Origin: an uncultured Bacteroidales bacterium
Lineage (GTDB): Bacteria; Bacteroidota; Bacteroidia; Bacteroidales; WCHB1-69
Assembly: GCA_900315705.1 (NCBI GenBank)
Contig: ONAB01000008.1
Span: 1 to 64,000 of the forward strand
DNA length: 64,000 nucleotides
Reading direction: 5' to 3'
Both the position numbers and the translations under genes were made by a program. The notes under the pieces are model-generated. The model had not been told where the DNA came from, made no database searches, and was given only the letters and a program-made list of their open reading frames with translations. This document shows positions 2,448 to 62,204 of this stretch, one piece after another. Positions within the stretch are counted from its first letter, which is position 1. Each line of letters begins with the position of its first letter.

Positions 2448-3225
2448 AGGAATTACCCCAAATATTGAAGCCATTATTGATGATGTGGCACAATTGGATT
2501 GCATTAAGCCTTACACGCTTTGTGGCGGCACGGCTTTGGCCTTACAGCTTGGCCACCGGATGAGCGAAGACTTGGACTTTATGATGTGGAGAATCTCCAA
2601 AAACGAAAAACCCGAAGTGGATTGGCCGACTATAGAAAAGGAGATACAGGGGAAAATCGGAGAAATAGAGCACCGCGACATTCTCGGATTCGACCAGGTC
2701 GCCTTTGTGGTAAGAGGAGTGAAACTTTCTTTTTTCGTCAGCGACAACCTATCTCCCATCAGCGAAAAAGTTCCGTACAAAGGCAATATTTTTATGGCCG
2801 ATGTACCCGCTATTTTGGCGATGAAAATGGAAGTAATGCTCCGCCGGCTCAAATACAGAGACTATTACGACATCTACTCCATCGTCAAAGCCGGATATTC
2901 TTTACAGGAGGGGATGGATGCTGCCATCAAGTATTCTGGTCACAGACTCTCTACAAAATCCTTAATGATTATGCTTTCAAGCAGCAGAATTCCTGTAGAT
3001 GCGAACTTTGCGCAAATGAGCCCGGTGTATGATGTCACCATTGAGACGATGCGGGATTTTCTTGTGAAGCATTTGAATGGATTAATTATGCCCACCCTCA
3101 CCATCCGACATAAACGACACTGGTTCGAGCCGAAGTTGCCGCCGATTTACAAGATTCTGTCGGATGCGTTTTTTGCCATCTGGCTGGTGCTGTTAGAGTT
3201 GCAGAAACGCTTGGTGGAAAATTAG
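2440..3225 (+). CDS. AbiEii/AbiGii-type nucleotidyltransferase toxin
   Basis: A 261-residue protein of the MNT-like nucleotidyltransferase fold. The N-terminal signature is 'CGGTALALQLGHRMSEDLDFM' (about residues 28-48), combining the GG-T/S motif with the metal-binding D-x-D. The downstream helix 'KMEVMLRRLKYRDYYDIYSI' (about 128-147) carries the conserved Lys, Arg and RD-YD residues of AbiEii toxins. In the family, such enzymes transfer nucleotides to tRNA or other targets and halt growth until the antitoxin acts. The C-terminus is longer and more hydrophobic ('FFAIWLVLLEL') than I would expect. The coding end runs into a heptamer repeat array; the stop codon TAG is inside its first unit. 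Confidence 0.85.
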   Translation: MHKGITPNIEAIIDDVAQLDCIKPYTLCGGTALALQLGHRMSEDLDFMMWRISKNEKPEVDWPTIEKEIQGKIGEIEHRDILGFDQVAFVVRGVKLSFFVSDNLSPISEKVPYKGNIFMADVPAILAMKMEVMLRRLKYRDYYDIYSIVKAGYSLQEGMDAAIKYSGHRLSTKSLMIMLSSSRIPVDANFAQMSPVYDVTIETMRDFLVKHLNGLIMPTLTIRHKRHWFEPKLPPIYKILSDAFFAIWLVLLELQKRLVEN

Positions 3226-3256
3226 AATTAAGAATGAAGAATTAAGAATTAAGAAT
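3222..3256. repeat. Heptamer array 1 (TAAGAAT family, 5 units)
   Basis: Five in-phase 7-bp units: TTAGAAT, TAAGAAT, GAAGAAT, TAAGAAT, TAAGAAT. The array starts at the toxin stop codon and ends 1 bp before the ATG of the next gene, so it is the whole intergenic leader of the VanX-like gene. Confidence 0.8.
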
Positions 3257-3257
3257 T

Positions 3258-4031
3258 ATGAAAAATTGTAAGAGATTGATTTTGAGTATTTTGTTTTTGA
3301 TGTGTATGGGTTGGTTGCCGTTGGTGAACGGGCAGGAGTTGAAGGAGGCCGTTTTGCCTGAGAAGGATGCCAGCCAGTTTGTGAACATCACCGACGTGGT
3401 GCCGGACGTGATTCTGGAAATCCGCTATTTCGGGACCTATAACTTTGTGGGCAAGCGTATTGCCGGTTATCTGCAGCCCACCGCTTTGTTGACGAAACGT
3501 GCCGCCGACAGTCTGAGGGCCGTCAGCGACGATGTGATGAAGATGGGCTACCGGCTGAAAATTTACGACGCCTACCGTCCGCAGATGGCTGTCGATCACT
3601 TTGTGCGCTGGGCCTCCGACATCCCTGATACACTGATGCGGCGGTACTTCTATCCGGAAGTGGATAAGAGCCTGCTGTTCGTGCAAGACTACATCGCGGC
3701 GAAGAGCGGCCACACCCGCGGCTCCACTGTCGATCTCACCCTCTTCGATATGACCACCGAGAAGGAGGTCGATATGGGCGGCACTTTCGACTGGTTTGGC
3801 GTGGAGAGCCATCCTGACTTTGGCGGCAACCCCGAGACGGGGAAGTACACGGGGAAAGCCTCTCCGGCGGGCCGTACCATCACGGAAGAGCAGTTCCGCA
3901 ACCGTATGATCTTGCGGGCGGCGATGATGCGCCACGGCTTCAAGCCCATCGACAGCGAGTGGTGGCACTTCACCCTCAAGGACGAACCTTTCCCCAGCAC
4001 CTACTTTGAGTTCCCCGTGAAGGAACTGTAA
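3258..4031 (+). CDS. Secreted D-Ala-D-Ala dipeptidase, VanX-type (M15D)
   Basis: A 257-residue peptidase with an N-terminal signal peptide (residues 1-25, ending 'PLVNG-Q'). Zinc-peptidase motifs are intact: 'SGHTRGSTVDLTL' with His152 and Asp159, and 'EWWHFTL' with Glu234 and His237; Arg107 in 'DAYRPQ' matches the substrate arginine. VanX-type enzymes split the free dipeptide D-Ala-D-Ala; outside resistance clusters they are thought to recycle or scavenge wall dipeptide, and the signal peptide places this one in the periplasm or outer membrane. There is no vanHA or vanRS nearby, so a glycopeptide-resistance role is not indicated. The last 222 residues are nearly identical to the C-terminal domain of the fusion gene at 8800-10527. 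The stop overlaps the next ATG (TAATG). Confidence 0.9.
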   Translation: MKNCKRLILSILFLMCMGWLPLVNGQELKEAVLPEKDASQFVNITDVVPDVILEIRYFGTYNFVGKRIAGYLQPTALLTKRAADSLRAVSDDVMKMGYRLKIYDAYRPQMAVDHFVRWASDIPDTLMRRYFYPEVDKSLLFVQDYIAAKSGHTRGSTVDLTLFDMTTEKEVDMGGTFDWFGVESHPDFGGNPETGKYTGKASPAGRTITEEQFRNRMILRAAMMRHGFKPIDSEWWHFTLKDEPFPSTYFEFPVKEL

Positions 4032-5692
4032 TGGTTATGCACTATCACCGACATACACATCTGGCTTTTTTCGTCGCCGCTGCATTGCTTCTGCTGGCGG
4101 CCTGCTCCAAGCAGCCAGAACAACAATTCTCGGTGGTTCAGGACACGCTCCACATTAACGCGCCAGATTATTTCACTCCATACACCAGAATTGAGTTGGA
4201 TAGGTTTGTCCCATATCAAGACTGGTATTTCTGCATTTTTGAGGAAAATGATATCTACGAACCTTGGAGAGAACAATGCGTCTTTTTGGCCCTTTCCAAA
4301 GACGGGAAAACCATACAGAAGGTAGATTGCCCGGAAGAAATCAGAAATCATTTCTATGGTGATCTGTATGTGCGGCAAGACACGCTTTTCCTTTATATCT
4401 ATTACGCTCCCCTTGAACCACGTTATTACTTTTTTGATCTGAAACAATGGAAATGGAAACCTGCCAAGGGTGAATCCAATCTCCTTTATGAAGATGATAT
4501 TTATCAAATTGTTGCCGTGAATCTGGGCGAATGGGGCCGTTACACCTGGTTTATAGATAAACAGCGCAATAATGACGAATTGCCCCAAAAAACATACTGC
4601 CAATATGTTAGGCCTTATGTGGTATCCGAAAGGATAATCCGTTTGGACAGCATCTACTACTTTGTGCATCCGTATGGCATTTACACCACTTCTGTCAAGG
4701 GCCCTAAAGGTGTGCTTTGCGACGACTCCACCTCTTATCGGATTGGGGAGGCAAGGGACTATCGGTTTATCGGCAAATTGTTTTATTGTCCTATATTCAA
4801 TGAAACAGGCACCAAAGTGGATTCATTTCCCTCATATTTCCATTTTACTGGTAAAAAGGTTGTTGGAAACGATTTTTGGAAGGAGGGTGCGGTGACAAAA
4901 TATGATTCGATAACGCAATATGACACCGTTATCAATCAGGCATTCCTTTGCAACAATCAACTTTACTGTATTGTAACTACGCCAAAGAGCACTTTTCTTT
5001 CACAAATCAGGGATGGGAAGATGATTTCTGAATTGGATTTGGGCGAACGATATGACTTTTTCCGTCATCGAGGGTCGTTCCGTAGTGTGAATCTGGCCGA
5101 TAACAAATGTTTTCTCCAATTTGAAGAAGATTTTTCCACGTATGGCCTGATGGATGTGGAGGATCGAACAATCCGTATCCGCCATTTGGTTATCCACCAA
5201 GACACGTTGCCCTTTGTGGGGACGGACAATGTAAAACCGTTGTTGGAGTTTCTGTTGATGCGCTTGGGTAATCTGTCCTTGGATGAATTGCGCCGCTATG
5301 AAACACAATTAGGCGGAATATGCTATCAGAAATATCGCTACACCAACGGTTATTTTTCGGATGATTATCAAGATAAAGACCAATATTTCATTCCGACATT
5401 TTACAAAAGAGTCAATGGCCAGCAGACTTTTGTCACCGAATATTGTGTCTTTATGTCCGACTCAATGGTCAAAAAGGTCTTTATGGAATGGGTGAAGACG
5501 AATTTCTTCAACTCTCACCTGTATGGATATGAAATTTGTGACAACTTAGCTGCCAAATGTGAGGAAGTTTCCGGAATCGTTACTCAGATTACCGGCACAA
5601 AACCCAAACGGGAAAAGAATTACTTGAAATGGACTTCCAGGGGCCTTACTATCAAGCTGTACGAAAAGGATGGCCGTGTGGTGATCTATTGA
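4031..5692 (+). CDS. Uncharacterised lipoprotein, tandem paralogue A
   Basis: A 553-residue protein with a signal peptide and lipobox (LLLLAAC, Cys at about residue 25), so a predicted lipoprotein. The rest shows repeated beta-rich blocks of about 50-80 residues with motifs such as 'YYFFDLKQWKW', 'DTLFLYIYYA' and 'FLCNNQLYCIV', hinting at a beta-propeller-like fold; no domain name comes to mind. It overlaps the upstream peptidase stop as TAATG. The paralogue at 5803-7401 aligns from the second ATG at 4037, and the first 27 bases from that ATG are identical in both genes, so 4037 is an alternative start. Function unknown; its position suggests linkage to the wall peptidases around it. Confidence 0.75.
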   Translation: MVMHYHRHTHLAFFVAAALLLLAACSKQPEQQFSVVQDTLHINAPDYFTPYTRIELDRFVPYQDWYFCIFEENDIYEPWREQCVFLALSKDGKTIQKVDCPEEIRNHFYGDLYVRQDTLFLYIYYAPLEPRYYFFDLKQWKWKPAKGESNLLYEDDIYQIVAVNLGEWGRYTWFIDKQRNNDELPQKTYCQYVRPYVVSERIIRLDSIYYFVHPYGIYTTSVKGPKGVLCDDSTSYRIGEARDYRFIGKLFYCPIFNETGTKVDSFPSYFHFTGKKVVGNDFWKEGAVTKYDSITQYDTVINQAFLCNNQLYCIVTTPKSTFLSQIRDGKMISELDLGERYDFFRHRGSFRSVNLADNKCFLQFEEDFSTYGLMDVEDRTIRIRHLVIHQDTLPFVGTDNVKPLLEFLLMRLGNLSLDELRRYETQLGGICYQKYRYTNGYFSDDYQDKDQYFIPTFYKRVNGQQTFVTEYCVFMSDSMVKKVFMEWVKTNFFNSHLYGYEICDNLAAKCEEVSGIVTQITGTKPKREKNYLKWTSRGLTIKLYEKDGRVVIY

Positions 5693-5774
5693 GTTTTGTC
5701 TCCCGCAGAAGGCGCAGATTGACGCAGAAATTATTAGGCGCATATACGCACAACACGCGGAGATAAAAAAATCG
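5681..5774. repeat. Direct repeat copy 1, 3' flank of paralogue A
   Basis: From the last codons (gtgatctattgag) onward the sequence runs through 'gcagaaggcgcagattgacgcagaaa' to 'acgcggagataaa'. The same blocks, diverged, follow paralogue B at 7390-7462. The motif CGCAGA recurs at 9-10 bp spacing. It marks the end of a duplicated unit. Confidence 0.65.
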
Positions 5775-5802
5775 TATTTTCGCACCTGCAAAAAATACCG
5801 CT

Positions 5803-7401
5803 ATGCACTATCACCGACATACACATCTGATCATGATTTTCGCGGCTGCATTGTTGCTGTTGGTGGCACGGTCTGTGCGAGCGCAACAGCGGTTTGTGGT
5901 AAAATATGATACGGTGTCTCTAAATGGTATTTCCCCTGCAAGTGGTTTATCCGTGTCGTGTTCCTTAGGACAAATCCGGAAATATCGCGACTACTATTTC
6001 GGCATTTATACTGAACAAAAAAGATTTGGACTCTCGGAGAAAACACTGCTGGCCATTTCTATACGGGATGGGATTTCAAGGCCGATTGAGTATCCTGAAG
6101 ATATAGAAGATAATTGGAGCTACGGCTTGTTCGTACGGAATGACGTTTTGTATCTTGGATCCTCTTCCGATAACAAAAGCTATTGTTTCGATTATGATAA
6201 TTGGCAATGGCGTAGGGCTCCGTATGTTTCAGTTTATTGGTATGAAGATGAAAACTATTATGTAGTTCCTCGTTATAAAGGCGGCAGCGATATGCTTTTT
6301 GTAGAAAAAAACACCACTTGGTATCCGGAAACGAAAAACGGATGGTTGCAGATGGAACCTGTCAACCGGCCCTATTTGAATCATTTTGGGCGGAGTAGGA
6401 TCATAAAAGGTGCCAGCCAATACTATTTCATCCGGAATAATGGCAGAATTGACAGTCTGCCCCTTAATCGGCCGGGGGAGATTGGCTATATGGATGTTTT
6501 AGGCGATGTCTTCGGTTGTGAAACTAAGAACTCCTTTAGCCCCAGGGAAAAATGGGTGTTTGAAAGCGATATGGATCTTTCGTTAAGGCGTTTATATTAT
6601 TCGTATGGTTCCTGCCGTATTGGCTATCGGGAACCCATACAAGATTATATATGCCGTACTGCTTTTTGCGTCAACAATCAACTGTATCTTGTTGTCAGTG
6701 GGCGGGATAAAACCTTTATCGCCCAAATGGTCAATGGTGAAATTCGGGAAATAGAGCCGCTGATATTTGGATTTCGCCATTTCAGGGATTTGAGTGGGGA
6801 ATGGTTTTTTAATTCGGCGCCGAATTCTTGCCACCTTGAATTTACAGAAGAGCACAGCACGGTTTCCGTTGACGTGGAAGACACAAATGTCTATATCCGC
6901 TATTTCACTTTTGATTGTCATCCGGATTCGCTGCCGATTGCTTCGGAAAAATCCACAGAGCATATCCTAGACTTCTTATTAAAAAACCTGCCTGATATCC
7001 CGTTATCAAATGTGGACAGCTGCGAGCGGAATTGGGGAGGATTAGGGCTTAGTCGTTTTTCCTCTCTTAATAACGGATTTTTTCCAGCACGATATCAAAA
7101 TCCGAACAAATATGGGAAACTGTCCTATTACAAGTTTTACAATGATGGATGGAGAAGTGAATTCGAATATTGTGTGCAAAAACGGGATTCAATGGTTAAA
7201 GCTGTGTTTATAGATTGGTTTCCAGCCAAATATGAATATAGGACTTGGGGCATGGAAAGTTCTGCCAAGTGCAAGGAAGTCAAGGATATTGTCTCCCGCA
7301 TCACGTGTGTACAACCCCAGCAGGAAAAGTTTTTTTTGAAATGGGAATATAACAATCTTGTTATTGAACTGTATGACAATACTCGTATGGTGATCTATTG
7401 A
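5803..7401 (+). CDS. Uncharacterised secreted protein, tandem paralogue B
   Basis: A 532-residue paralogue of the protein encoded at 4031-5692. They share the first nine residues (MHYHRHTHL), the block 'AFCVNNQLYLVVSG' matching 'AFLCNNQLYCIVTT', the 'EFEYCVQKRDSMVKAVF' segment matching 'TEYCVFMSDSMVKKVF', and the last residues ('VVIY' versus 'MVIY'). The lipobox cysteine is lost: LAACS has become VARSV, and the sequence now ends in a signal-peptidase-I-like 'VRA-QQ'. This copy is therefore probably secreted and not lipid-anchored. A weak promoter-like TATTTTCG lies near 5779. Function unknown. Confidence 0.75.
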   Translation: MHYHRHTHLIMIFAAALLLLVARSVRAQQRFVVKYDTVSLNGISPASGLSVSCSLGQIRKYRDYYFGIYTEQKRFGLSEKTLLAISIRDGISRPIEYPEDIEDNWSYGLFVRNDVLYLGSSSDNKSYCFDYDNWQWRRAPYVSVYWYEDENYYVVPRYKGGSDMLFVEKNTTWYPETKNGWLQMEPVNRPYLNHFGRSRIIKGASQYYFIRNNGRIDSLPLNRPGEIGYMDVLGDVFGCETKNSFSPREKWVFESDMDLSLRRLYYSYGSCRIGYREPIQDYICRTAFCVNNQLYLVVSGRDKTFIAQMVNGEIREIEPLIFGFRHFRDLSGEWFFNSAPNSCHLEFTEEHSTVSVDVEDTNVYIRYFTFDCHPDSLPIASEKSTEHILDFLLKNLPDIPLSNVDSCERNWGGLGLSRFSSLNNGFFPARYQNPNKYGKLSYYKFYNDGWRSEFEYCVQKRDSMVKAVFIDWFPAKYEYRTWGMESSAKCKEVKDIVSRITCVQPQQEKFFLKWEYNNLVIELYDNTRMVIY

Positions 7402-7462: not shown

Positions 7463-7474
7463 AAATATTTATGC

Positions 7475-7513: not shown

Positions 7514-7540
7514 CCGCGTTATTAAAATAGTGTACTGTAA

Positions 7541-8707
7541 ATGAGTAGAATAAAGAATCCGTTTATCGTCAAGGGACGCATCCCGTCAGAATACTTTTGC
7601 GACAGGGTGGAAGAAACGAAGAAATTGACACACGAACTGCTTGCCGGGAATGATGTGGTTATTATGTCCTCTCGCCGTCTCGGTAAAACTGGGCTGGTGC
7701 AACACTGCTTTGACCAACCTGTTTTCGAAGAAGATTACTACACCTTTTTCATAGATATATTGGAAACCAGCTCTTTGCGTGACTTTACATATGCTTTTGG
7801 CAAGTGTGTATTTGAAACGCTGAAACCGATGGGAAGGAAGTTCGTCGATTCCTTTGTGCAGACCTTGAAGTCGCTCCAGGCGGGTTGGGGTTATGACCCG
7901 ATTTCTGGAATGCCGAAATTCACCTTCTCCATCGGTGCCATCATAAACCCGCAAGTGACGATGAATGAGATTTTTACCTTGATAGAAAATGCAGACAGGC
8001 GCTGCATCGTGGCCATTAACGAGTTCCAACAGATTACGAAATACCCAGAGAAGAACGTGGAGGCGGTTTTGCGCGGGTTTATCCAGCATTTGTCCAACTG
8101 CGATTTCATTTTCGCTGGTTCGGAGCGGCATCTGTTGACAGAAATGTTCAGCACGTATGGCCGGCCTTTTTACAACAGCACATCGTCATTGCACCTCGAC
8201 CCCATCCTAAAGGAACTCTATGTGGAGTTTGTCACCACCAATTTTCAACGTTTCCAAAAACAGATTGGTGCAGAAATTGTAGAACGTACGTACGATTTGT
8301 TCGAGGGCAATACATTCTGCCTGCAAAAAACATTCAATCTGGCATTTGATAGAACAGGTTTACGACACAAATGTACAGAACAGGATGTTTGCCAAACGAT
8401 TGATGAGATACTTTCGGACAAAGAGCGTGATTTCCAGAGCATTCTTTCCAACGTCGCCTCCCGTCCGAAGGAGTTGCTGATTGCTATAGCCGTGGACAAT
8501 CACGTGGACAAACCCACATCCGCTGCCTTCATCCGCAATCACCAACTGCAGTCAGCCAGTTCTGTGCAGTCGGCCATTAAGCAATTGCTTCAAGATGACC
8601 TTATCACATTCCAAGTGAATGAAGAAGGTAAAAAGGTTTACCAAGTGTCGGACCCGCTCCTGAAATTGTGGCTCCAGCAGTCGTTCAACGGTGGTTTTGA
8701 ATTCTGA
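7541..8707 (+). CDS. AAA-type ATPase (ATPase_2/archaeal ATPase family)
   Basis: A 388-residue P-loop ATPase. Walker A is 'SSRRLGKTGL' (residues 43-52), the GxRRxGKTxL variant typical of the archaeal-ATPase/ATPase_2 family that is abundant in Bacteroidota. A Walker B-like strand 'CIVAINEFQQI' follows near residues 151-161 and a sensor-like 'FIFAGSERHL' near 190. The C-terminal 80 residues ('SAIKQLLQDDLITFQ...YQVSDPLLKLWLQQ') look like a winged helix. The family is often linked to defence or DNA transactions but rarely characterised, so the role is unknown. It is a single-gene unit with its own promoter and a tandem-repeat operator. Confidence 0.8.
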   Translation: MSRIKNPFIVKGRIPSEYFCDRVEETKKLTHELLAGNDVVIMSSRRLGKTGLVQHCFDQPVFEEDYYTFFIDILETSSLRDFTYAFGKCVFETLKPMGRKFVDSFVQTLKSLQAGWGYDPISGMPKFTFSIGAIINPQVTMNEIFTLIENADRRCIVAINEFQQITKYPEKNVEAVLRGFIQHLSNCDFIFAGSERHLLTEMFSTYGRPFYNSTSSLHLDPILKELYVEFVTTNFQRFQKQIGAEIVERTYDLFEGNTFCLQKTFNLAFDRTGLRHKCTEQDVCQTIDEILSDKERDFQSILSNVASRPKELLIAIAVDNHVDKPTSAAFIRNHQLQSASSVQSAIKQLLQDDLITFQVNEEGKKVYQVSDPLLKLWLQQSFNGGFEF

Positions 8708-8733
8708 ACAAATAAGTGATTTTTCAACCAAAA

Positions 8734-8754
8734 CTGTTCACTTCTCACTGCTCA
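8734..8754. repeat. Heptamer array 2 (CTGTTCA family, 3 units)
   Basis: CTGTTCA, CTTCTCA, CTGCTCA in phase. On the other strand this is the GTGAACA family of the arrays at 11186 and 23855. Confidence 0.65.
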
Positions 8755-8765
8755 CTAAAAAAACG

Positions 8766-11185: not shown

Positions 11186-11241
11186 CTCTAACCTTTAACC
11201 CTTAACCTCTGTTCACTGTTCACTATTCACCGTTCACTGAT
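11186..11241. repeat. Heptamer array 3 (composite TAACCTT / CACTGTT, 8 units)
   Basis: Eight in-phase units: CTCTAAC, CTTTAAC, CCTTAAC, CTCTGTT, CACTGTT, CACTATT, CACCGTT, CACTGAT. Two sequence families are joined without a phase break. The reverse complement has the same order of families as array 4 at 23855-23952. Confidence 0.8.
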
Positions 11242-19792: not shown

Positions 19793-19867
19793 TGGGAACT
19801 ACTAGGTTCGAACTAGTGACCCCCTGCTTGTAAGGCAGGTGCTCTGAACCAACTGAGCTAAGCTCCC
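19793..19867 (-). tRNA. tRNA-Val (anticodon TAC)
   Basis: The minus strand folds as a cloverleaf: acceptor GGGAGCT/AGTTCCC with one G-T pair, a D arm with 'AGCTCAGTTGGTTCAGAGC', an anticodon stem CCTGC/GCAGG enclosing CTTACAA (anticodon TAC, valine), and a T arm with GTTCGAA. The 3' CCA is not encoded. Length is 75 nt. Confidence 0.95.
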
Positions 19868-23854: not shown

Positions 23855-23952
23855 GTGAACAGTGAACAGTGAACAGTTATTAGGGGTTAGAGGTTAAAAG
23901 TTAAAGGTTAAAGGTTAGAGGTTAATGGCTAATGGCTAATGGCTAGCAGTTA
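23855..23952. repeat. Heptamer array 4 (composite GTGAACA / AAGGTTA / ATGGCTA, 14 units)
   Basis: Fourteen consecutive in-phase 7-bp units: three GTGAACA, GTTATTA, GGGGTTA, GAGGTTA, AAAGTTA, two AAGGTTA, GAGGTTA, three ATGGCTA, and GCAGTTA. It fills the gap between the kinase and folK, and its last unit overlaps the final codons of folK. Confidence 0.85.
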
Positions 23953-35381: not shown

Positions 35382-35438
35382 CCTGCGTTGGATTTGAATA
35401 TGGATAATAGGTTTCCCAAAGTGATGGTCACAAAAAAA

Positions 35439-35538
35439 GGGTAAGCTACTTATATCGCATCGCTACAACCGACGTACCCTTGCTGTATTCCTACCCTGGG
35501 GGAGTTAGAAGGGAGCAGATCGTACAAGACTTACCCGC
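35439..35538 (-). ncRNA. ffs: Signal recognition particle RNA (small bacterial type, 4.5S-like)
   Basis: About 100 nt on the minus strand. The ends pair (GGGTAAG at the 5' side, CTTACCC at the 3' side, followed by TTTTTTT). Near the middle is the SRP domain IV signature: a GTA-GGAA-TAC stem-loop with the GGAA tetraloop, then AGCA on the 3' side of the asymmetric loop and an outer CCC/GGG stem. A perfect TACTTTTG promoter lies directly upstream. Recognised from structure and motif, not from a covariance search. Confidence 0.85.
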
Positions 35539-35540
35539 GG

Positions 35541-35548
35541 CAAAAGTA
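35541..35548 (-). promoter_or_regulatory. -7 promoter element of the SRP RNA gene
   Basis: TACTTTTG on the minus strand, a few bases before the predicted RNA 5' end. Confidence 0.75.
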
Positions 35549-45959: not shown

Positions 45960-45994
45960 AATGGAGAATTGAGAATGGAGAATTAAGAATGTAG
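45960..45994. repeat. Heptamer array 5 (AATGGAG/AATTAAG family, 5 units)
   Basis: AATGGAG, AATTGAG, AATGGAG, AATTAAG, AATGTAG in phase. It shares its family with array 1 at 3222. The last unit runs into the left arm of the inverted repeat. Confidence 0.8.
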
Positions 45995-46024
45995 AGACGC
46001 GGCGCGCCACGTCTCTACATTCTT
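45985..46024. repeat. 15-bp perfect inverted repeat with GGCGCGCC in the loop
   Basis: AAGAATGTAGAGACG and CGTCTCTACATTCTT are perfect reverse complements, separated by 10 bp (CGGCGCGCCA), which hold an 8-bp palindrome. No T run follows either side, so it looks like a mobile palindromic repeat unit and not a simple terminator. Confidence 0.8.
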
Positions 46025-46052
46025 CGCAAGTCGCAAATCGCAAATCGCAAGT
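46025..46052. repeat. Heptamer array 6 (CGCAAAT family, 4 units)
   Basis: CGCAAGT, CGCAAAT, CGCAAAT, CGCAAGT, starting 1 bp after the inverted repeat and ending 5 bp before the ligase stop codon. Confidence 0.8.
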
Positions 46053-46057
46053 CGCGC

Positions 46058-52923: not shown

Positions 52924-53655
52924 TTATTTGTGGCCTTGGCACTTGTGCTCGCCGTTAGCTTGACCCTGGCATTTGTGCTCGCCATTGGCTTGGCCCTGAC
53001 ATTTGTGCTCACCATTGGCGTGGCCCTGGCACTTGTGCTCGCCGTTAGCTTGGCCTTGGCACTTGTGCTCGCCGTTAGCTTGGCCTTGGCACTTGTGCTC
53101 GCCATTAGCCTGGCCTTGGCACTTGTGCTCACCATTAGCGTGGCCCTGGCACTTGTGCTCGCCGTTAGCTTGGCCTTGGCACTTGTGCTCAGCATTGGCT
53201 TGGCCTTGGCACTTATGCGCAGCAGGCGTTTGGCTCTGGCCTTTCAGTTCACTGCTGGCCTGGCCCTGACACTTATGCTCTCCTTCAGCGTGACCTTGGC
53301 AAGTCTTGCTGGCGGAACTGCAGGATGATTTGCCTTTGCAGCAGGCGGGAAGCGCCTCACGGGCAGCCTTGTCGGCAGGAACATTGTCGGCGTTGTAACC
53401 CAGTTTGCTGATTTGTTTGCGCAACTGGTCGGGATCAGTCTTGCTGGCATCGTAGTTGATGGTCAGCTTGGCCGTTTTCATATCGTAGGAATAGGTCTTC
53501 ACGCCCTTGAAGAACGGGACGTTTTCACTGAACTTGTCGGCACATTTCTGACAGACGCCGTTGGTTTGGATCACCACCGTCTGGATGTTGGACTTTTGAG
53601 CGAAGGCGCTCAAGCTGAATACAGCCATAATGGCTAAAATAAGAGCTCTTTTCAT
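52924..53655 (-). CDS. Exported HMA-domain protein with a His/Cys 10-residue tandem repeat
   Basis: A 243-residue exported protein. Signal peptide 1-19/20. Residues about 23-92 form a heavy-metal-associated (HMA/CopZ-like) domain with its metal motif as Cys35-Q-K-Cys38. Then 'ACCKGKSSC' and, from residue 121 to the end, twelve 10-residue blocks plus a stub, consensus G-[QH]-A-N-G-E-H-K-C-Q; nine blocks are near-perfect. By count, residues 101-243 hold 15 Cys and 15 His, so it looks like a periplasmic metal (perhaps copper) sink or chaperone. It follows the TonB-dependent receptor gene by 100 bp on the same strand, probably in one transcript. Metal specificity cannot be read. Confidence 0.88.
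   Translation of the reverse strand: MKRALILAIMAVFSLSAFAQKSNIQTVVIQTNGVCQKCADKFSENVPFFKGVKTYSYDMKTAKLTINYDASKTDPDQLRKQISKLGYNADNVPADKAAREALPACCKGKSSCSSASKTCQGHAEGEHKCQGQASSELKGQSQTPAAHKCQGQANAEHKCQGQANGEHKCQGHANGEHKCQGQANGEHKCQGQANGEHKCQGQANGEHKCQGHANGEHKCQGQANGEHKCQGQANGEHKCQGHK
52927..53295 (-). repeat. 30-bp tandem repeat within the HMA gene
   Basis: Each unit encodes G-Q/H-A-N-G-E-H-K-C-Q. The last nine units are almost identical at DNA level, differing mainly at the Q/H codon; the first three are diverged. The Q/H order suggests larger units were copied. Several other frames stay open across the array, a by-product of the repeat. Confidence 0.92.
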
Positions 53656-56071: not shown

Positions 56072-56098
56072 AAATAATTTTCCAAAAATTAACGGCGG

Positions 56099-56197: not shown

Positions 56198-56200
56198 GCA

Positions 56201-58000
56201 TCAGTTCTTGTCGTAATTGTAGATTTCCCGGCAGATGGAGTCGTATTTCTGGTAGATGACCTTGCGTTTCAGCTTGAGCGTCTGCGAAAGCTCGCCGCTT
56301 TCGGTGCTCCAGACGTCACCAATAAGACGGAAACGCTTGATCTGCTCGTGGTCGGCCAAGGTCTTGTTCACCAAATCCACCTCCCGACTGATGAGTTGCA
56401 TAAAGTACGGGTGGTTCATATATTCGGTGCGGTCCTTGGGGATTTCGATACGACGTTTCTTGAAAGCCTCGTCCATCTTATCAAAGAGTGGCACAATCAG
56501 GGCGGAGGCAAACTTCTCGTTCTCACCGATCACCATAGCATTATCGACGAAGGGTGACTCGCGGAGTTTGGTCTCCACCACCTGCGGGGCGATGTACTTG
56601 CCCAAGGAGAGCTTGAAGATCTCCTTCTTGCGGTCGGTGACCTTGAGGAACTTGCCATCGACAATGGTGCCGATATCGCCGGTGTGGAACCAACCCTCCT
56701 CGTCGATGACCTCGCGGGTGTAAGCCTCGTCCTTGTAGTAGCCCTTCATCAGGCAAGGGCCTTTGGTGAGAATTTCGCCGTCGGGGGCAATCTTGCACTC
56801 CACGGTGGGCAGTATCTCACCCACGCAGCCCACGCGAATCATATGCTTGCGGGGCACGTTGACGGCAATGACGGGAGATGTTTCCGTAAGTCCGTAGCCT
56901 TCATAGATGCGCACCTTGGCGGCGGTGAAGAGGCGGATTACCTTCTCGGGGATCGAGGAACCGCCGGAAACGACCGTCATCTCCTTGCCGGAAAGGTTCT
57001 CTCTCCATTTGCTGTACACCAGCTTGTCGGCAATCTCATACTTATATTGGTAGAGTTTGTTGGGATTCTCGTAATCGTAACGAGTGGCAATGCGGAAAGC
57101 CCAATCGAAAATCCATTTTTTCGGGCCTTTGAGGTTCTTGCCTGCGGCCTCGATCTTGTCATACATCATCTCGAACACGCGGGGCACAGCGCAGAACCCG
57201 TCAGCCTTCATATCCTTCATATCCTTGGCGATGGTGGCCAGACTGCCGGCATAATAGTGACTCACCCCCATAAACTGGTAGTGATAGTTCACGGTGCGCT
57301 CATAGACGTGACAGAGCGGTAGGAAACTGAGCATCTTGGCACGATAGTCCAAAAGCTGATATTCCAAGGCAATGGGTAAGAAATTGGAGCAGATGTTCTT
57401 ATGCGTAAGCATCACGCCCTTCGAACGGCCCGTGGTGCCCGAAGTGTAGATGATGGTGGCCACATCGTCGGGAGAGATGGTGCGCTTGTTTTCCTCAATG
57501 ACCGGCATCCACTTCTCCAGATTCTGGCGGCCCTTCTCCAGCAACTCGGCTGAAGGGGTGAGCCCTTCGATGTTGTCGAGGGCATACACCATCGGATGCT
57601 GTTCGATGTCGGGCAGCACCTTCTCCACACGGCGGTAGATGGACTCCATACCAAAGACGATGCACTTGCAGTCGCAGTGGTTGAGGATGTAGCGGTAGTC
57701 CTCGGGATTCAGGGTCGGATAGACGGGCACGTGAATCATTCCGGCCAGCATAATGCCCATATCCAGGAAGTTCCACGCGGGACGGTTTCTCATAATGGTG
57801 ACAATCTTGTCGCCTTTTTGCAGTCCCAGTTCCAGAAAAGCGGCTGCAATCGTGTGTGAGTACTGGACGTAGTCCTGGATACTATAGGTCTTCCACCCGT
57901 TGCCGTCGCGTTTTGCGAAGAAATCGGGTTTATCATACTTGGCAGAGATGACATCCAGGATGTCAAATATGCGAGTAGGGAGTTTTGGTTCTTGTTCCAT
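56201..58000 (-). CDS. AMP-dependent long-chain acyl-CoA ligase, copy 3
   Basis: A 599-residue acyl-CoA ligase. 'TIIYTSGTTGRSKGVMLTH' (P-loop), 'EGYGLTETSPVIAV', 'GWFHTGDIGTI', 'DRKKEIFKLSLGKYI' and 'QTLKLKRKVI' near the C-terminus are all intact. Copies 1 and 2 share this layout; the three are not tandem duplicates but separate loci. Its start is 11 bp downstream of the GT2 gene, so it is the last gene of the run from 61442 to 56201, if that is one transcript. Confidence 0.92.
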   Translation of the reverse strand: MEQEPKLPTRIFDILDVISAKYDKPDFFAKRDGNGWKTYSIQDYVQYSHTIAAAFLELGLQKGDKIVTIMRNRPAWNFLDMGIMLAGMIHVPVYPTLNPEDYRYILNHCDCKCIVFGMESIYRRVEKVLPDIEQHPMVYALDNIEGLTPSAELLEKGRQNLEKWMPVIEENKRTISPDDVATIIYTSGTTGRSKGVMLTHKNICSNFLPIALEYQLLDYRAKMLSFLPLCHVYERTVNYHYQFMGVSHYYAGSLATIAKDMKDMKADGFCAVPRVFEMMYDKIEAAGKNLKGPKKWIFDWAFRIATRYDYENPNKLYQYKYEIADKLVYSKWRENLSGKEMTVVSGGSSIPEKVIRLFTAAKVRIYEGYGLTETSPVIAVNVPRKHMIRVGCVGEILPTVECKIAPDGEILTKGPCLMKGYYKDEAYTREVIDEEGWFHTGDIGTIVDGKFLKVTDRKKEIFKLSLGKYIAPQVVETKLRESPFVDNAMVIGENEKFASALIVPLFDKMDEAFKKRRIEIPKDRTEYMNHPYFMQLISREVDLVNKTLADHEQIKRFRLIGDVWSTESGELSQTLKLKRKVIYQKYDSICREIYNYDKN

Positions 58001-58011
58001 TGATTATCTAG

Positions 58012-58962
58012 TTATATTTTTTTCGCGATTTGATACTTGTTCCTGTCCGGATCGTTGCGGGCAATCATCTCACCGAGGAAGCCGGCCAGGAAGAGCATAA
58101 AGCCGAGCACCATTGCCAACAGGGCAAGGAAGAAAAGCGGCTGGTCGGTCACCTGACGGAAGGGTACACCGTGAGACTGGTGCACCAGCTTGGCCACGAT
58201 GAGCCATACTGCACATACCAAGCCCACCAGGAATGCGATGCTTCCCCAGACGCCAAAGGCGTGCATAGGCTTTTTGCCGAAACGCGTGGTGAACGTGATG
58301 GTGAGCAGGTCGAGATAGCCGTTCACAAAACGGTTCAAGCCGAACTTGGTGACACCGTATTTGCGTTTCTGGTGAACGACCACCTTCTCCCCTATCTTGT
58401 TGAAACCAGCCCATTTGGCGATCAGCGGGATATAGCGGTGCATCTCGCTGTACACCTCAATGGACTTGACCACATCCTTGCGGTAGGCCTTCAGTCCGCA
58501 GTTGAAGTCGTGCAGCTGGATGCCCGACATCTTGCGAGTGGTCCAGTTGAAAAACTTGGAGGGGATGTTCTTGGCCAGTTTGGAATCATAACGCACCTTT
58601 TTCCATCCGGAAACAAGGTCATAGCCATCCTCCTTGATCATACGATAGAGTTCGGGAATCTCGTCGGGACTGTCCTGCAGGTCGGCGTCCATCGTGATGA
58701 CCACGTTGCCCTCACAGGCCTCGAAGCCGGTGTTGAGGGCCGCGGACTTGCCGTAGTTGCGACGGAAGCGGATGCCGCGGATGCAGGGATTGTCATTGTG
58801 GAGGGACTCGACGATGGACCACGACTTGTCGGTCGAACCATCGTCTACCATCAGCACCTCATAGGAGAACTGATGCTCGTCCATCACCTTTTTGATCCAC
58901 GCCGCCAACTCGGGCAGCGACTCTTCTTCATTGTACAGGGGAACAATTACTGATATATCCAT
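58012..58962 (-). CDS. Membrane GT2, ArnC/GtrB-like polyprenyl-phosphate glycosyltransferase
   Basis: A 316-residue GT2 with two C-terminal membrane helices (about 230-255 and 268-292). 'VIVPLYNEEESLPEL', 'MVDDGSTDKSW', 'ITMDADLQDSPDEIPEL' and 'LHDFNCGLKAYR' are the ArnC/GtrB-type blocks. It would load a sugar onto undecaprenyl phosphate. In Bacteroidota a DUF4199 gene often lies just upstream of this gene, as here. Confidence 0.9.
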   Translation of the reverse strand: MDISVIVPLYNEEESLPELAAWIKKVMDEHQFSYEVLMVDDGSTDKSWSIVESLHNDNPCIRGIRFRRNYGKSAALNTGFEACEGNVVITMDADLQDSPDEIPELYRMIKEDGYDLVSGWKKVRYDSKLAKNIPSKFFNWTTRKMSGIQLHDFNCGLKAYRKDVVKSIEVYSEMHRYIPLIAKWAGFNKIGEKVVVHQKRKYGVTKFGLNRFVNGYLDLLTITFTTRFGKKPMHAFGVWGSIAFLVGLVCAVWLIVAKLVHQSHGVPFRQVTDQPLFFLALLAMVLGFMLFLAGFLGEMIARNDPDRNKYQIAKKI

Positions 58963-58971
58963 ACTTTGGGG

Positions 58972-59006
58972 TTTTCGATTTGCGATTTACGATTTTCGAT
59001 TTGCGG
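58972..59006. repeat. Heptamer array 7 (TTTGCGA family, 5 units)
   Basis: TTTTCGA, TTTGCGA, TTTACGA, TTTTCGA, TTTGCGG in phase. It is the reverse complement of the CGCAAAT family (arrays 6 and 9). It starts 9 bp upstream of the GT2 start. Confidence 0.8.
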
Positions 59007-59012
59007 TTTGTC

Positions 59013-59100
59013 TCCTCCTCACGGCTCTACAGGTTCCTCCTCAAGGCACCACGGTATCCTCCTCACGGCTCCACAAGCTCCTCCTCAAGGCACCACACTG
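59013..59100. repeat. 22-bp tandem repeat, four units
   Basis: Four exact-length 22-bp units beginning TCCTCCTCA-C/A-GG, with alternating variants (CGGCTC and AGGCAC). The whole 58963-59275 gap (about 313 bp) has no gene; all short frames in it are products of the repeats. Confidence 0.85.
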
Positions 59101-59208
59101 CGGCTTCGCCTTGTGTGGGGTTACTGGGATTTTGTCCCTTCGGGACTGCTCAAGGTTTATCACCTCCTCACGGCACCACACTGCGGCTTCGCCTTGTGTG
59201 GGGTTACT
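59080..59208. repeat. Two 46-bp direct repeats with hairpin-forming core
   Basis: Copies at 59080-59125 and 59163-59208 differ at one base. Each contains CCACAC and GTGTGG around an inner GGC-TTC-GCC, so it can fold as a hairpin. Between and after them lie small hairpins such as CCCTTCGGG and GCCCCTTCGGGGC. It suggests REP-like sequences. Confidence 0.8.
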
Positions 59209-59249
59209 TGCGCTTCGCGCGTCTTGCCCCTTCGGGGCTGCTTAAGGAA

Positions 59250-59277
59250 AGTCTTAAGTCCTAAGTCCTAAGTCTCT
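59250..59277. repeat. Heptamer array 8 (AGTCCTA family, 4 units)
   Basis: AGTCTTA, AGTCCTA, AGTCCTA, AGTCTCT in phase. It ends inside the stop codon region of the DUF4199 gene. Confidence 0.75.
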
Positions 59278-60184
59278 AAGCCTCCTCTTCCACTTCCTCC
59301 TCTGCCAATTCCTCGGAAGCAGGGCGTTTGGAAGTGTAGTGGTACATTGCGATGAAGAGTCCGAAGAACATTCCATAGAGCAGGTCCATTAAGGCGGCGA
59401 CAGCAGCATAGCGTCCCGGCATATCATAGTGCGGCACGCGGTTCTTGTTTTGGGCGAAACGCACCTCCACAGGGTTGAGGGCGCCCATTTTCGAGCAAGT
59501 GCTCTGCACCATCTGCTGCACATAGAATGTCGAGGGCTGGTTCTCGTTCTGTTCCACATAGAGGGCCAATGTCTCCACCATAGTTCTGCGCGCGTAGGTG
59601 TCGAAATTACCCATCTTGTAGTTGTCGGCAGTATCCACGGCTTTCTTGTCGGTGATTTTCAGCAAGAAGAAATCGTAAATCATACCGACACCCTTCCGGG
59701 CATCTTGCTTGAGCGCGCTGCTGGCGGTATCGGGCCAGGAAAAGGACTCCTGCTCAACCTTCAAGAGAGAATCCACCCTATTAAGATAGGTTTTCATCTC
59801 AACTTGCGTGATGGTGTCTTTTTCAATGACCTTATGGTAATTGTCAAGGGCCACCTCGTATTTCTTCTGCAGTCCGTCGGGTTCGATCACGGCATAGTGC
59901 AGCATATTGTAGCCAAACAGGATGGCGGATCCCACCAAAGAGATGAGCACGCAGCCGAGGAAGGCCTTCGCGAAGGAGAGCCGCTCGGTGTAGAGTTCCT
60001 TGAACTCCTTGATGCCAGCATACAATACAAGCACAAAGCCGATGATGAGGGCCAGGTCAAGCACCTTGGCACCGGCATAGTCCACACGGCGGGCGTACAT
60101 CTTGACCAGCTCGAAAACAGCCAGCATCACGCCGAGAATGGCCCCCCACTTGAGGGTGGAGAGATAGGCTTTTTTCTGTTTCAT
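59276..60184 (-). CDS. DUF4199 family membrane protein
   Basis: A 302-residue protein. Three N-terminal hydrophobic helices (about 13-33, 42-62, 75-95) and one near 265-287, with a polar middle domain rich in Lys/Glu. This matches DUF4199, which in Bacteroidota sits directly upstream of a GT2 gene as it does here. The middle domain has no catalytic motif. The C-terminus is Glu-rich ('EELAEEEVEEEA'). Confidence 0.8.
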   Translation of the reverse strand: MKQKKAYLSTLKWGAILGVMLAVFELVKMYARRVDYAGAKVLDLALIIGFVLVLYAGIKEFKELYTERLSFAKAFLGCVLISLVGSAILFGYNMLHYAVIEPDGLQKKYEVALDNYHKVIEKDTITQVEMKTYLNRVDSLLKVEQESFSWPDTASSALKQDARKGVGMIYDFFLLKITDKKAVDTADNYKMGNFDTYARRTMVETLALYVEQNENQPSTFYVQQMVQSTCSKMGALNPVEVRFAQNKNRVPHYDMPGRYAAVAALMDLLYGMFFGLFIAMYHYTSKRPASEELAEEEVEEEA

Positions 60185-60208
60185 ATCCTCAGGGACAAGA
60201 GGTTAGGA

Positions 60209-60619
60209 TTACTCCTTTCCGGGGCAGCAGAACTCAGTCAGCACGCCATCGGTGGCCTTGGGGTGAGCGAAACCGATCTGGAGGCCTTCGGCGCCGCCGC
60301 GGGGTTCCTTGTCAATCAGACGGACTTCCTTGTCGGCCAGCTCGTGCAGCGTGGTGGCAGTGTCGTCCACGGCATAGGCGATGTGATGGATGCCCTGACC
60401 GCGGTTCTCGAGGAACTTGGCGATGGTGCTCTCGGGGGAAGTGGGCTCCAGCAGCTCGATCTTGGTCTGCCCCACCTTGAAAAAGGCGGTCTTCACCTTC
60501 TGGTCGGCGACCTCTTCAATGTTGTAGCATTTAAGGCCCAGGATGTTTTCATAATAAGGGATAGATTCTTCCAGGCTTTTCACGGCAATGCCGATGTGTT
60601 CGATGTGAGAAATGTTCAT
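60209..60619 (-). CDS. mce: Methylmalonyl-CoA epimerase
   Basis: A 136-residue vicinal-oxygen-chelate protein: 'HIEHIGIAVKSLEESIPYYENILGL' at the start, 'VKTAFFKVGQTKIELLEPTSPES' and 'GIHHIAYAVDDT' with the metal His/Glu residues. It switches (R)- and (S)-methylmalonyl-CoA, a step in the succinate-to-propionate route of Bacteroidota. The mutase and decarboxylase genes are not in the window. It is 24 bp upstream of the DUF4199 gene on the same strand. Confidence 0.93.
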   Translation of the reverse strand: MNISHIEHIGIAVKSLEESIPYYENILGLKCYNIEEVADQKVKTAFFKVGQTKIELLEPTSPESTIAKFLENRGQGIHHIAYAVDDTATTLHELADKEVRLIDKEPRGGAEGLQIGFAHPKATDGVLTEFCCPGKE

Positions 60620-60650
60620 TATTATAAAGCTTTAAGGGTTAATAATCAGG

Positions 60651-61442
60651 TTAATCGCGGGTGACGTCGGCTTCCAACCAGCGGGTGTGGTGCTTAATGA
60701 GGTGGATGGCCACCATCAGCAGGGTGCAGGCGGCCAGCACATAGAGGGAGGGGCGCAGCCACGCGGCGGCGGGCACTGTCCAGCCGTGGAAACGCACGTC
60801 CGTGAGTAGGAAAAACAGGTAGTCCACCACCACATACGAGAAGATGGCGGAATAGATGGTGGCATATTCCCGTCGGATAAAGGTCTTGAAAGAGAAGGAC
60901 ATCTCCCCTTTCTGGAAAAGAGACCAGTTGGGGATGAACGGGGGCACTGTATCGGCCCACGCCTCGAAGACGTCGCCGAACTGCTGGCGCAGGTAGGCCT
61001 CCTCGGCGAACATAATGCGTTCGTAGTAGAGCCAGTAGAGCAGGGAAACTATGATAAAGGCCCAGATGTTCATCGCAAAGATGAGGATGCCGGCCCAGAT
61101 GAGATAGTTGGCCAGATAGAGGGGATGGCGCACCACGGAATAGATGCCAGTGGTGTTGAGCTGCTTGGCCACCTGCTTGTCGGTATTACGGCCGGAGGTG
61201 CCCTTGGGTGTGGTGCACACAGTGTATGCGCGCAAGACGAGGCCCGACAGGGTGGTCAGGATCGCCACAACGGTCAGGATGACGCGCAGGGTATGGCGCT
61301 GGCCCACAAAGAGGCGGAGATACAGGTCAGGGTTGCTATATATCAGGATAGGGATAGCCAACAGGAAGATGAGGACGGGAATCTGCCCGCGATGCTTGAA
61401 CAGGAAGTTGCCGGATTGTTCGAAAGATTGCTGTAGTGCCAC
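60651..61442 (-). CDS. ICMT/PEMT-like integral membrane methyltransferase
   Basis: A 263-residue protein with about six hydrophobic helices. The block 'LNTTGIYSVVRHPLYLANYLIWAG' (RHPLY motif) and 'YERIMFAEEAYLRQQFGDVFEAWA' with EE-xxL-xxxFG are the SAM-binding signature shared by isoprenylcysteine and phospholipid methyltransferases. Bacterial relatives methylate lipids, including lipid A phosphate in one spirochaete family, but the substrate here is unknown. A weak TATTTTCG promoter lies near 61464. Confidence 0.82.
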   Translation of the reverse strand: MALQQSFEQSGNFLFKHRGQIPVLIFLLAIPILIYSNPDLYLRLFVGQRHTLRVILTVVAILTTLSGLVLRAYTVCTTPKGTSGRNTDKQVAKQLNTTGIYSVVRHPLYLANYLIWAGILIFAMNIWAFIIVSLLYWLYYERIMFAEEAYLRQQFGDVFEAWADTVPPFIPNWSLFQKGEMSFSFKTFIRREYATIYSAIFSYVVVDYLFFLLTDVRFHGWTVPAAAWLRPSLYVLAACTLLMVAIHLIKHHTRWLEADVTRD

Positions 61443-61471
61443 GTCGTAATAATTTAAGGCTGCGAAAATAC

Positions 61472-61508
61472 AAAAAAAAGCAGTTACTTTCAGAACAAAA
61501 ATAACTGC
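61472..61508 (-). terminator. Intrinsic terminator of rplS
   Basis: GCAGTTA/TAACTGC stem with a T run on the minus strand, 29 bp after the rplS stop. Confidence 0.8.
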
Positions 61509-61537
61509 CTATGATGAAGATGTTAGAATTCAAGATA

Positions 61538-61891
61538 TTAGCCTCTGCGCTCTTTGATACGGGCTTTCTTGCCGGTGAGGTTGCGGAGGTAGAAAATGCG
61601 GGCGCGACGCACAACACCGCGTTTGTTGACCTTGACGTCAGCAATCATCGGGGTGGCGAATGGGAAGATTCTCTCCACACCGATGCCACCGGAGATCTTT
61701 CTCACGGTGAAAGTCTTGGTGGCGCCGGAGCCGTTGATTTGCAGGACCACGCCCTGGAACTGCTGGATACGCTCCTTGGAGCCTTCCACGATTCTATAGG
61801 AAACGGTGATGGTGTCACCGGCTTTGAATTTGGGGAATTCTTGTTTCGTAATGAAATTGTCCTCTACGTACTGAATCAATTCTTGTTTCAT
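61538..61891 (-). CDS. rplS: 50S ribosomal protein L19
   Basis: A 117-residue L19 of normal length: 'FKAGDTITVSYRIVEGSKERIQQFQGVVLQING', 'TFTVRKISGGIGVERIFP' and 'VRRARIFYLRNLTGKKARIKERR' are all diagnostic. The ATG at 61891 gives the family N-terminus (MKQELIQYVE); the longer frame has 18 extra residues overlapping the promoter. It sits at the 30S-50S interface. It has a single-gene terminator and its own promoter. Confidence 0.96.
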   Translation of the reverse strand: MKQELIQYVEDNFITKQEFPKFKAGDTITVSYRIVEGSKERIQQFQGVVLQINGSGATKTFTVRKISGGIGVERIFPFATPMIADVKVNKRGVVRRARIFYLRNLTGKKARIKERRG

Positions 61892-61934
61892 CTCTTTATC
61901 TTTTTTATTTTTTATCGCTTTTATTTCAAGGCTG

Positions 61935-61942
61935 CAAAAATA
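61935..61942 (-). promoter_or_regulatory. -7 promoter element of rplS
   Basis: TATTTTTG on the minus strand, 44 bp before the ATG at 61891. Confidence 0.68.
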
Positions 61943-62155
61943 CATTTTTTTTGTTAATTCAGCCCCTACCCCGCCCCGATTTCTCGAAATTTGTCTTCTT
62001 CACTTTTTTCTATTATTATAATTTATTGACAAACAATAATATAGTTCACTTTTTCAACAATTCAAAAGGAATATTTTTATCATTCAACCATTCCAAAAAA
62101 GTATCATAAAGCACATTGGATTCTCAAAAATTCGGCAGATAACGGGGTATTTTTC

Positions 62156-62204
62156 CGCAAATCGCACATCGCAAATCGTACATCGCGAATTGCATACCGA
62201 AAAT
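62156..62204. repeat. Heptamer array 9 (CGCAAAT family, 7 units)
   Basis: CGCAAAT, CGCACAT, CGCAAAT, CGTACAT, CGCGAAT, TGCATAC, CGAAAAT, in phase; later units are more degenerate. Confidence 0.8.

Follow-up and report, generated by a model that had tools for sequence, protein, structure and literature searches.

Heptamer arrays in the spacers of a Bacteroidales genus are oriented by gene end and drawn from a limited set of unit families

We analysed the degenerate heptamer arrays that lie between genes in a 64,000-nucleotide stretch of an uncultured Bacteroidales bacterium (contig ONAB01000008.1 of assembly GCA_900315705.1, positions 1 to 64,000; hereafter the window), in a larger sample of its genome and in its relatives. 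The arrays are oriented by the gene end beside which they lie: on the sense strand, they are richer in G than in C after stop codons and richer in C than in G before start codons. This orientation is what is new here, heptamer arrays themselves being already known. The unit sequence is constrained as well, since a limited set of families recurs and is partly common to the genus. The host assembly, designated G000, has 2,995,600 bp in 47 contigs, and the genome-scale sample consisted of the window and 40 stretches, i.e. 832 kb (85.7 kb noncoding and about 747 kb coding). The genus sample included six genomes, this one among them (G000, G002, G004, G012, G014 and G015). Genes were called with a simple home-made coding-score script that gives approximate starts. 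Arrays were detected with Tandem Repeats Finder (TRF, score ≥ 30), and overlapping rows at one place were all counted unless stated to be nonredundant.

To describe orientation, we pooled 250 period-7 arrays from the co-oriented spacers of five genomes, excluding arrays not flanked on both sides by called genes and TRF units of a length other than the period. Stop-side arrays lie at most 14 bp from the upstream stop and over 40 bp away from the start; start-side arrays lie at most 40 bp from the start and over 14 bp away from the stop. On the sense strand, G exceeded C in 86 of 97 stop-side arrays (C > G in 9, two ties), versus 6 of 75 start-side arrays (C > G in 66, three ties). Solitary arrays were likewise polar, with G > C to C > G ratios of 46:13 on the stop side and 2:22 on the start side. 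There was no such polarity in array-free spacers (123:136 after stops, 112:151 before starts), and mid-spacer arrays were little polar (22:35 of 62). The polarity was significant in G000 and G014 each alone, and divergent spacers showed it weakly (13:5, 6:9). Period-8 arrays were too few for a polarity to show. Start-side arrays are also nearly free of start codons: ATG, GTG and TTG are absent from 68 of the 75 arrays as oriented versus 19 of 75 if flipped. With random placement as the null, the 171 arrays of the first sample were enriched within 14 bp of stops (77 versus 38.8, s.d. 4.9) and not enriched at starts (36 versus 38.6).

The same families serve both gene ends. Read from the array lists, start-side families are largely reverse complements of stop-side ones. 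The start/stop pairs are AAATCGC/GCGATTT, TAACCNN/GGTTANN, CTGTTCA/GTGAACA and TCACTAA/TTAGTGA, as well as CATTCTC/GAGAATG, AAGTCTT/AAGACTT, GCTAACA/TGTTAGC and ATTATCC/GGATAAT. Several window arrays are themselves one family in two orientations (CGCAAAT/TTTGCGA, GTGAACA/CTGTTCA, TAACC/GGTTA). Among 3007 pairs of arrays from different spacers, 7.3% were inverted same-family pairs and 1.1% direct ones.

Several simple reasons for the polarity were considered and set aside. Seeding from the G of TAG or TGA stops is contradicted by arrays that start after TAA stops, which are polar at 16:1 of 17. Stop codons in three frames make a weak purpose (on the stop side, 48 of 97 arrays in their own orientation versus 34 of 97 flipped, and 27 versus 26 of 75 on the start side). 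Convergent spacers speak against avoidance of Rho sites after stops as the only cause. A rule of one orientation per family whatever the position fits G000 (61 of 72) and fails in G014 (60 of 83, null 59.6). Stop codons, hairpins (see below) and Rho avoidance each fail or fall short as the reason for stop-side polarity.

The first-pass annotation, a reading of the window by a model from the letters alone, had taken the period to be the conserved property and the unit sequence to be free. The first part stands, as the period is 7 in the sampled genome and in most congeners while orthologous spacers differ in unit. The second is not supported, as units recur. Among 111 arrays of G000 there were 273 identical-unit pairs versus 17.9 (s.d. 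8.3) expected from random spacer heptamers, and among 148 arrays of G014 there were 180 versus 21.8. A unit also present in G000 was found in 43% of the 148 G014 arrays (4% for random heptamers), in 30% of 23 in G002 and 18% of 22 in G012, and in none of 14 in G004. Within families, the fixed and free columns agree from locus to locus and between two species: AAATCG[C/T], TAACC[CT][TCA], AGA[AC][TG][TG]N, GTGA[ATG][CT]A and TT[AG]GCTN. Counted per array, column conservation had p < 0.05 in 9 of 12 family-genome tests, which are not independent because families overlap; two of the 14 combinations had too few arrays. Since families are common to arrays, the arrays are not merely random seeds.

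The period itself is sharp. TRF found period-7 arrays at all nine places reported by the first-pass annotation, with heptads readable in phase, and the phenomenon proved larger than first reported. The noncoding DNA of the window (5.6 kb by the gene caller) gave 12 period-7 rows, some places having more than one, and at most two rows at every other period below 14; 60 first-order Markov resamplings averaged 0.6 period-7 rows and none reached 12. Over 832 kb, noncoding rows numbered 126 at period 7, 28 at 8, 12 at 9, 17 at 10, 3 at 6, none at 5, 38 at 14 and 14 at 21, so that 7 far exceeds both 6 and 8, the comparison set in advance as the one that could refute the period. Coding rows numbered 20 at period 7, 121 at 9 and 52 at 12. 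Without redundancy, the G000 sample held 81 noncoding and 18 coding period-7 arrays, and they are thus rare in coding DNA, where 7 bp shifts the frame.

Perfect tandem duplications, compared with 10 dinucleotide shuffles, were the cleanest measure. In G000, observed over expected counts were at chance for periods 4, 5 and 6 (370/351, 103/104 and 26/32) and rose to 60/7.7 at period 7, plus 53/1.1 for longer runs. Counts were 17/3.2 at period 8, 3/0.7 at 9, few for periods 9–13, and 16/0 at 14. G014 gave 89/6.5 plus 58/0.1 at 7, 8/2.3 plus 10/0 at 8 and 28/23 at 6, and G004 was noisier (14/3.2 at 7, 7/0.9 at 8). The spectra of G000 and G014 thus show a step of 7, sometimes 8, rather than a leaning towards short duplications of any length. 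Arrays with 8-bp units form a small class in G000 (AAACTAAG, AAATTAAG; e.g. L030:428-518 and L012:13416-13462), and 8-bp units form inverted arrays in G002 and G012 (AAGCTTAG/CTAAGCTA).

Nonredundant period-7 arrays per kb of noncoding DNA were 0.95 in G000, 0.93 in G002, 0.54 in G004, 1.90 in G012, 3.12 in G014 and 0.22 in G015, for which the sample was small and one stretch all N. The signal is thus strong in four of the six genomes, this one included, whereas G004 has less of it and G015 little. In four other families of Bacteroidales there were 0.23, 0, 0.11 and 0.12 arrays per kb, with 9/5.2 duplications at 7. A further 76 loci retrieved by a search with the GT2 protein of the window (L046–L121, nearly all titled Bacteroidota) had a weak excess (30/11.8 at 7, 13/4.6 at 8). 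The nearest titled matches of this protein are Bacteroidales metagenome assemblies, with 79% identity at best, in a search from which very near records may have been excluded.

At orthologous spacers, arrays are gained, lost and replaced, with units that differ between species. We compared the folK-dNK junction in this genome and in 11 congeners having both genes. The spacer has 104 bp in G000, mostly [TAGCCAT][TAACCYY][CTGTTCA], and 207 bp with TTAAACC-type units in G002; units are CCAATAA in G007 and CCTTGAA in G012. In the other eight congeners the junction is short or overlapping and without array (L124 was judged by BLAST coordinates). The DUF4199-GT2 spacer was read by eye in 17 genomes, this one included (G003 and G026 had too little of the locus). 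Ten of them have heptamer or octamer arrays of differing units, often [TAACCNN] directly before the ATG; L246–L251 have none and L255 is ambiguous. Both acyl-CoA ligase and CysRS genes were present at 10 of 20 loci. Their spacer holds two arrays in G000, [CCTGAAT] in G013 and short [TTGAACN] stretches in G006 and G014. The MsrA-SSF synteny was seen in G000 only (1 of 19 loci). In G010, one spacer (L233:2840-3000) is a serial mosaic of at least four heptamer families.

The first-pass annotation had also suggested a process that adds 7 bp, and length differences between close species fit 7-bp gain or loss. These comparisons are between species, the genomes searched including no second genome of the host species. 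The gaps inside arrays were chosen by eye among well-aligned ones, coding and poorly aligned parts having many other gap lengths. Whole-unit changes were seen in three close pairs: 7 and 14 bp in G010/G014; 7 bp, perhaps the same event, in G010/G006; 7, 21 and 7 bp in G014/G006, as well as 14 bp in G006/G014 at CysRS. Those of 7 bp included GGTTATG, AAGTCTC and AACTATA. Spacer differences between the Cyanothece strains 8801 and 8802 are also mostly indels in 7-nt increments, according to PMC4679880.

The spacers with arrays at gene ends probably lie mostly within operons, with reserves, to judge from the scarcity in them of TAnnTTTG, which we take to be the Bacteroidota promoter motif. Over 573 spacers, it occurs 321 times in sense and 48 times in antisense, versus 59.8 in shuffles. 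Among spacers of 80–160 bp, it is present in 49% of the 180 without arrays, versus 12% with arrays at both sides (n = 17), 25% at the start side (n = 24) and 16% at the stop side (n = 31). Inside the arrays themselves, the motif was found in two stop-side cases and in no start-side one.

We propose a two-layer account, a 7-nt generator followed by an orientation filter, whose chances of being right we consider about even. The generator would be a replication or repair step of the genus that adds and removes DNA 7 nt (sometimes 8 nt) at a time, in its simplest form by misalignment of the growing strand by 7 nt. Loops of about 7 nt should escape mismatch repair. The observations that speak to this layer are the sharp peak at 7, the multiples 14 and 21, the whole-unit differences in some close species and the rarity in coding DNA. 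A MutS domain was found in 25 of 25 genomes searched and Ku in none of the 25, so that neither loss of MutS nor Ku end joining explains the 7-bp step. The 7-nt ruler would be set by a polymerase, as Mrazek 2007 proposed according to PMC4679880, and a polymerase-contact idea for 7 nt is cited in PMC4692102. The filter would remove 7-bp changes from genes and sort arrays by orientation, those beside gene ends lying mostly in promoter-poor, probably intra-operon spacers. One limited stock of families would then serve, as reverse complements, the stop side (G-rich, C-poor) and the start side (C-rich, G-poor). To this layer belong the polarity, the missing start codons and the shared repertoire. 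On the start side, the sorting force is presumably selection on intercistronic mRNA against false starts or structure before the ATG, and avoiding false start codons and G could suffice as a reason. That the same families persist implies either copying from one array to another or a constraint on the motif.

Several observations weigh against this account. Pure slippage would not be expected to yield recurrent families whose fixed and free columns agree, nor an identity between units that is nearly flat with distance (0.84 to 0.82). The polarity of stop-side arrays is also found in convergent spacers (12:4, 2:16), where there is no downstream gene to protect; arrays that fill the whole spacer are not polar (7:8 of 16), and polarity at either gene end is not significant in G002, G004 and G012 singly, which have smaller samples (2:2 at the start side of G012). 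G004 and G015 have no lag-7 excess in their match profiles, and G004 has a period-6 excess (18/9.3). In all-pairs noncoding alignments at four loci, gaps of 7 (14 cases) formed no clear peak versus gaps of 8 (12) and 9 (17), and in one AGCTAAN stretch of G010/G014 (L233/L234) the gaps measure 5 and 6 bp. Regarding promoters, there is no deficit of TAnnTTTG where arrays lie elsewhere in the spacer (60% of 10), the deficit is weaker with a stricter two-part motif, whose rarity prevents a clear result, and where there are arrays a motif has less room. Finally, 13 Maribeggiatoa TAACTGA sets overlap the upstream stop in forward orientation, as reported in PMC4679880.

Other explanations share part of this evidence. 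Purely neutral 7-nt slippage, in which random spacer seeds duplicate and drift and selection only removes frameshifts, would give the sharp period, its higher multiples, lineage-specific arrays at orthologous spacers, whole-unit gaps and rarity in coding DNA. It is unlikely to be the whole story, being already weakened by the strong polarity, and the recurrence of families, with fixed and free columns common to arrays and to two species, speaks against it too. If gene conversion or a mobile process instead carried copies of a few families from spacer to spacer, selection keeping the tolerated orientations, one would expect families shared within and between genomes and used in both orientations, as observed. 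We still find such dispersed copying doubtful, as the order of variants in AAATCGC/T arrays differs between loci (by eye). The heptad may also be the binding register of a cold-shock or S1-type OB-fold protein on intercistronic mRNA. The period would then matter more than the exact sequence, and the fixed core with free columns and the promoter-poor, intra-operon-like setting of gene-end arrays are consistent with it. A similar proposal is made in PMC4679880, which cites CspB as binding heptamer repeats with one protein per heptamer. Such a reader of RNA would nonetheless meet different sequences at stops and starts, where the families are reverse complements, and the units are very diverse, which makes this an improbable explanation.

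Pairing of a G-rich stop-side array with the C-rich start-side array of the same spacer, as a hairpin or terminator, is suggested by a few spacers with clearly inverted arrays (G002 L253, G012 L258) and by 7 inverted same-family pairs among 40 within spacers, versus the 7.3% between spacers. The duplex energy within spacers is nonetheless not stronger (median −4.7 versus −6.0; n = 40 and 832; p = 0.45) and solitary arrays are also polar. We thus rejected hairpin pairing as a general explanation and consider it very unlikely; paired arms of the kind that define REP/BIME elements or terminators are not the rule. An artefact of assembly or gene calling might be feared with multi-contig assemblies and a home-made gene caller, and the first-pass annotation had named absence from close relatives as its sign. 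This can practically be dismissed: several independent assemblies of relatives contain arrays, with different units, the genes flanking those of the window are confirmed by Pfam, and stop-side polarity does not depend on start calls.

How do these arrays relate to known repeats? The STRR of cyanobacteria are tandem degenerate heptamers in spacers, with several families per genome and units that probably differ from those described here. As in such intergenic heptanucleotide repeats and in long simple sequence repeats, the units here are 7-bp, tandem, multi-copy and mostly intergenic, and the gaps chosen by eye in close pairs are changes of length by whole units. PMC4679880 and PMC4692102 report heptamer arrays in cyanobacteria, Beggiatoaceae, Xanthomonas and a few Bacteroidetes. 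The statement of the first-pass annotation that none were described in Bacteroidota thus has to be withdrawn, as TAACTGA arrays are recorded for five Bacteroidetes in PMC4679880, and larger heptamer assemblages for Elizabethkingia. The TAACTGA repeats (MacGregor 2015, PMC4679880) are the closest likeness: short intergenic heptamer arrays in Bacteroidetes among other hosts, with 7-nt indels between Cyanothece strains and with sets also inside ribosomal operons. Most sets face the start codon, mostly ending directly upstream of it, and those beside the end of an upstream gene are reversed in Flexibacter litoralis and Cyanothece, in keeping with the orientation rule found here. Our arrays share the start-side orientation (C > G in 66 of 75) but not the unit: TAACTGA was absent from the 48 canonical units in the sampled 832 kb of G000. 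One unit was studied there, similar units being rarely repeated, whereas we find tens of units in about ten families and a strong stop-side class of opposite orientation. The GGGNATC heptamers of Xanthomonas and Nostoc (PMC4692102) also have period 7, lie between genes and vary extensively in length and sequence between close species, but they are a single G-quadruplex-prone family, unlike the many families here, most without G runs. The long simple sequence repeats of Mrazek 2007 are described in PMC4679880 as having heptanucleotides as the commonest class in most genomes, and 7-nt polymerase slippage was proposed for them. The summary there makes no mention of orientation or unit families, while the arrays described here are degenerate, family-limited and oriented. 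A full-text literature search found no account of oriented heptamer arrays of several families in Bacteroidales.

Table 1. Positions of the heptamer arrays and other features in the window.
Feature	Position	Strand	Setting	Evidence
[AATTAAG/TAAGAAT] x6	3220..3262	+	AbiEii/M15 spacer	TRF, direct reading, Pfam
[CTGYTCA] x3.4, degenerate	8733..8756	+	between ATPase gene (7541-8707) and S66/M15 peptidase gene	TRF, Pfam
[TAACCYT] x2.7 then [CTGTTCA] x4.4	11186..11239 (TRF 11189-11239)	+	start-side, C>G in sense; ends 13 bp 5' of SSF transporter ATG (11253)	TRF, direct reading
tRNA	19793-19867	-		Rfam
sense [TAGCCAT]x3 [TAACCYY]x6 [CTGTTCA]x3	23855..23945	-	from folK stop codon to 16 bp before dNK ATG; most of the spacer	TRF, Pfam, ortholog comparison
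Bacteroidales small SRP RNA	35435-35543	-		Rfam
sense [CTCCATT/CTTAATT] x5	45960..45995	-	start-side, before CysRS start (45946 in longest reading)	TRF
inverted repeat GAATGTAGAGACG...CGTCTCTACATTC	45987..46022	-	acyl-CoA ligase/CysRS spacer	direct reading of sequence
sense [TTTGCGA] x4.6	46024..46055	-	stop-side, G>C; 2 bp past acyl-CoA ligase stop codon	TRF
sense [TCGCAAA/AAATCGN] x5.6	58972..59010	-	start-side, 9 bp before GT2 ATG (58962)	TRF
sense [GACTTAG] x4.4	59249..59280	-	stop-side, overlaps DUF4199 stop codon (59276-59278)	TRF
[CGCAAAT] x7, degenerate	62156..62205	.	divergent spacer, rplS (61538-61945, -)/dnaE (ATG ~62307, +)	TRF

Of the nine arrays in the window, eight are flanked by genes of one orientation (Table 1); only the array at 62156 is in a divergent spacer (rplS, encoding L19, and dnaE). 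The flanking pairs, by Pfam, are AbiEii/M15, ATPase/S66-M15, MsrA/SSF, folK/dNK, acyl-CoA ligase/CysRS, DUF4199/GT2 and rplS/dnaE. The array at 3220-3262 starts within the final codons of the AbiEii-like gene (2440-3225), takes in its stop codon and fills the spacer up to the ATG of the M15 peptidase (3258), which bears out the earlier observation that one array supplies the whole leader of a gene. The array sites match no known RNA in an Rfam search. The inverted repeat of the acyl-CoA ligase/CysRS spacer lies between the arrays at 45960-45995 and 46024-46055 and overlaps the end of the former; its stem arm CATTCTT resembles the adjoining array units (CATTCTY in sense). Between the two heptamer arrays of the DUF4199-GT2 spacer there are 22/44-bp tandem repeats of the TCCTCCTCAAGGCACCACGGTA type (59013-59097). 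Elsewhere, TRF found 30-bp and 90-bp tandem repeats at 52931-53301 within a gene with a heavy-metal-associated (HMA) domain, beside a TonB-dependent receptor gene.

A bolder possibility, which we hold only tentatively and think rather unlikely, is that the arrays mark gene boundaries by their orientation, as heptads from a stock common to the genus that is kept by dedicated 7-nt copying. They would act between genes as two-way insulators of transcription or translation. The G-rich strand would then point away from the gene at both ends. If this were true, polymerases leaving a gene either way would meet G-rich nascent RNA, and entering ones C-rich.

The preference of bacterial tandem repeats for seven bases has been a question since at least the 2007 survey summarised in PMC4679880. 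Here is a lineage where the 7-bp step stands alone, with nothing at 4–6 in G000, a minor 8 and then the multiples of 7. Its arrays are common (0.2 to 3 per kb of spacer, depending on the genome) and differ between close species. Because the step differs between close species and is scarce in four other families, comparison of genomes offers a way to look for its generator. The orientation rule, for its part, provides a means of telling a selected element from a neutral by-product.

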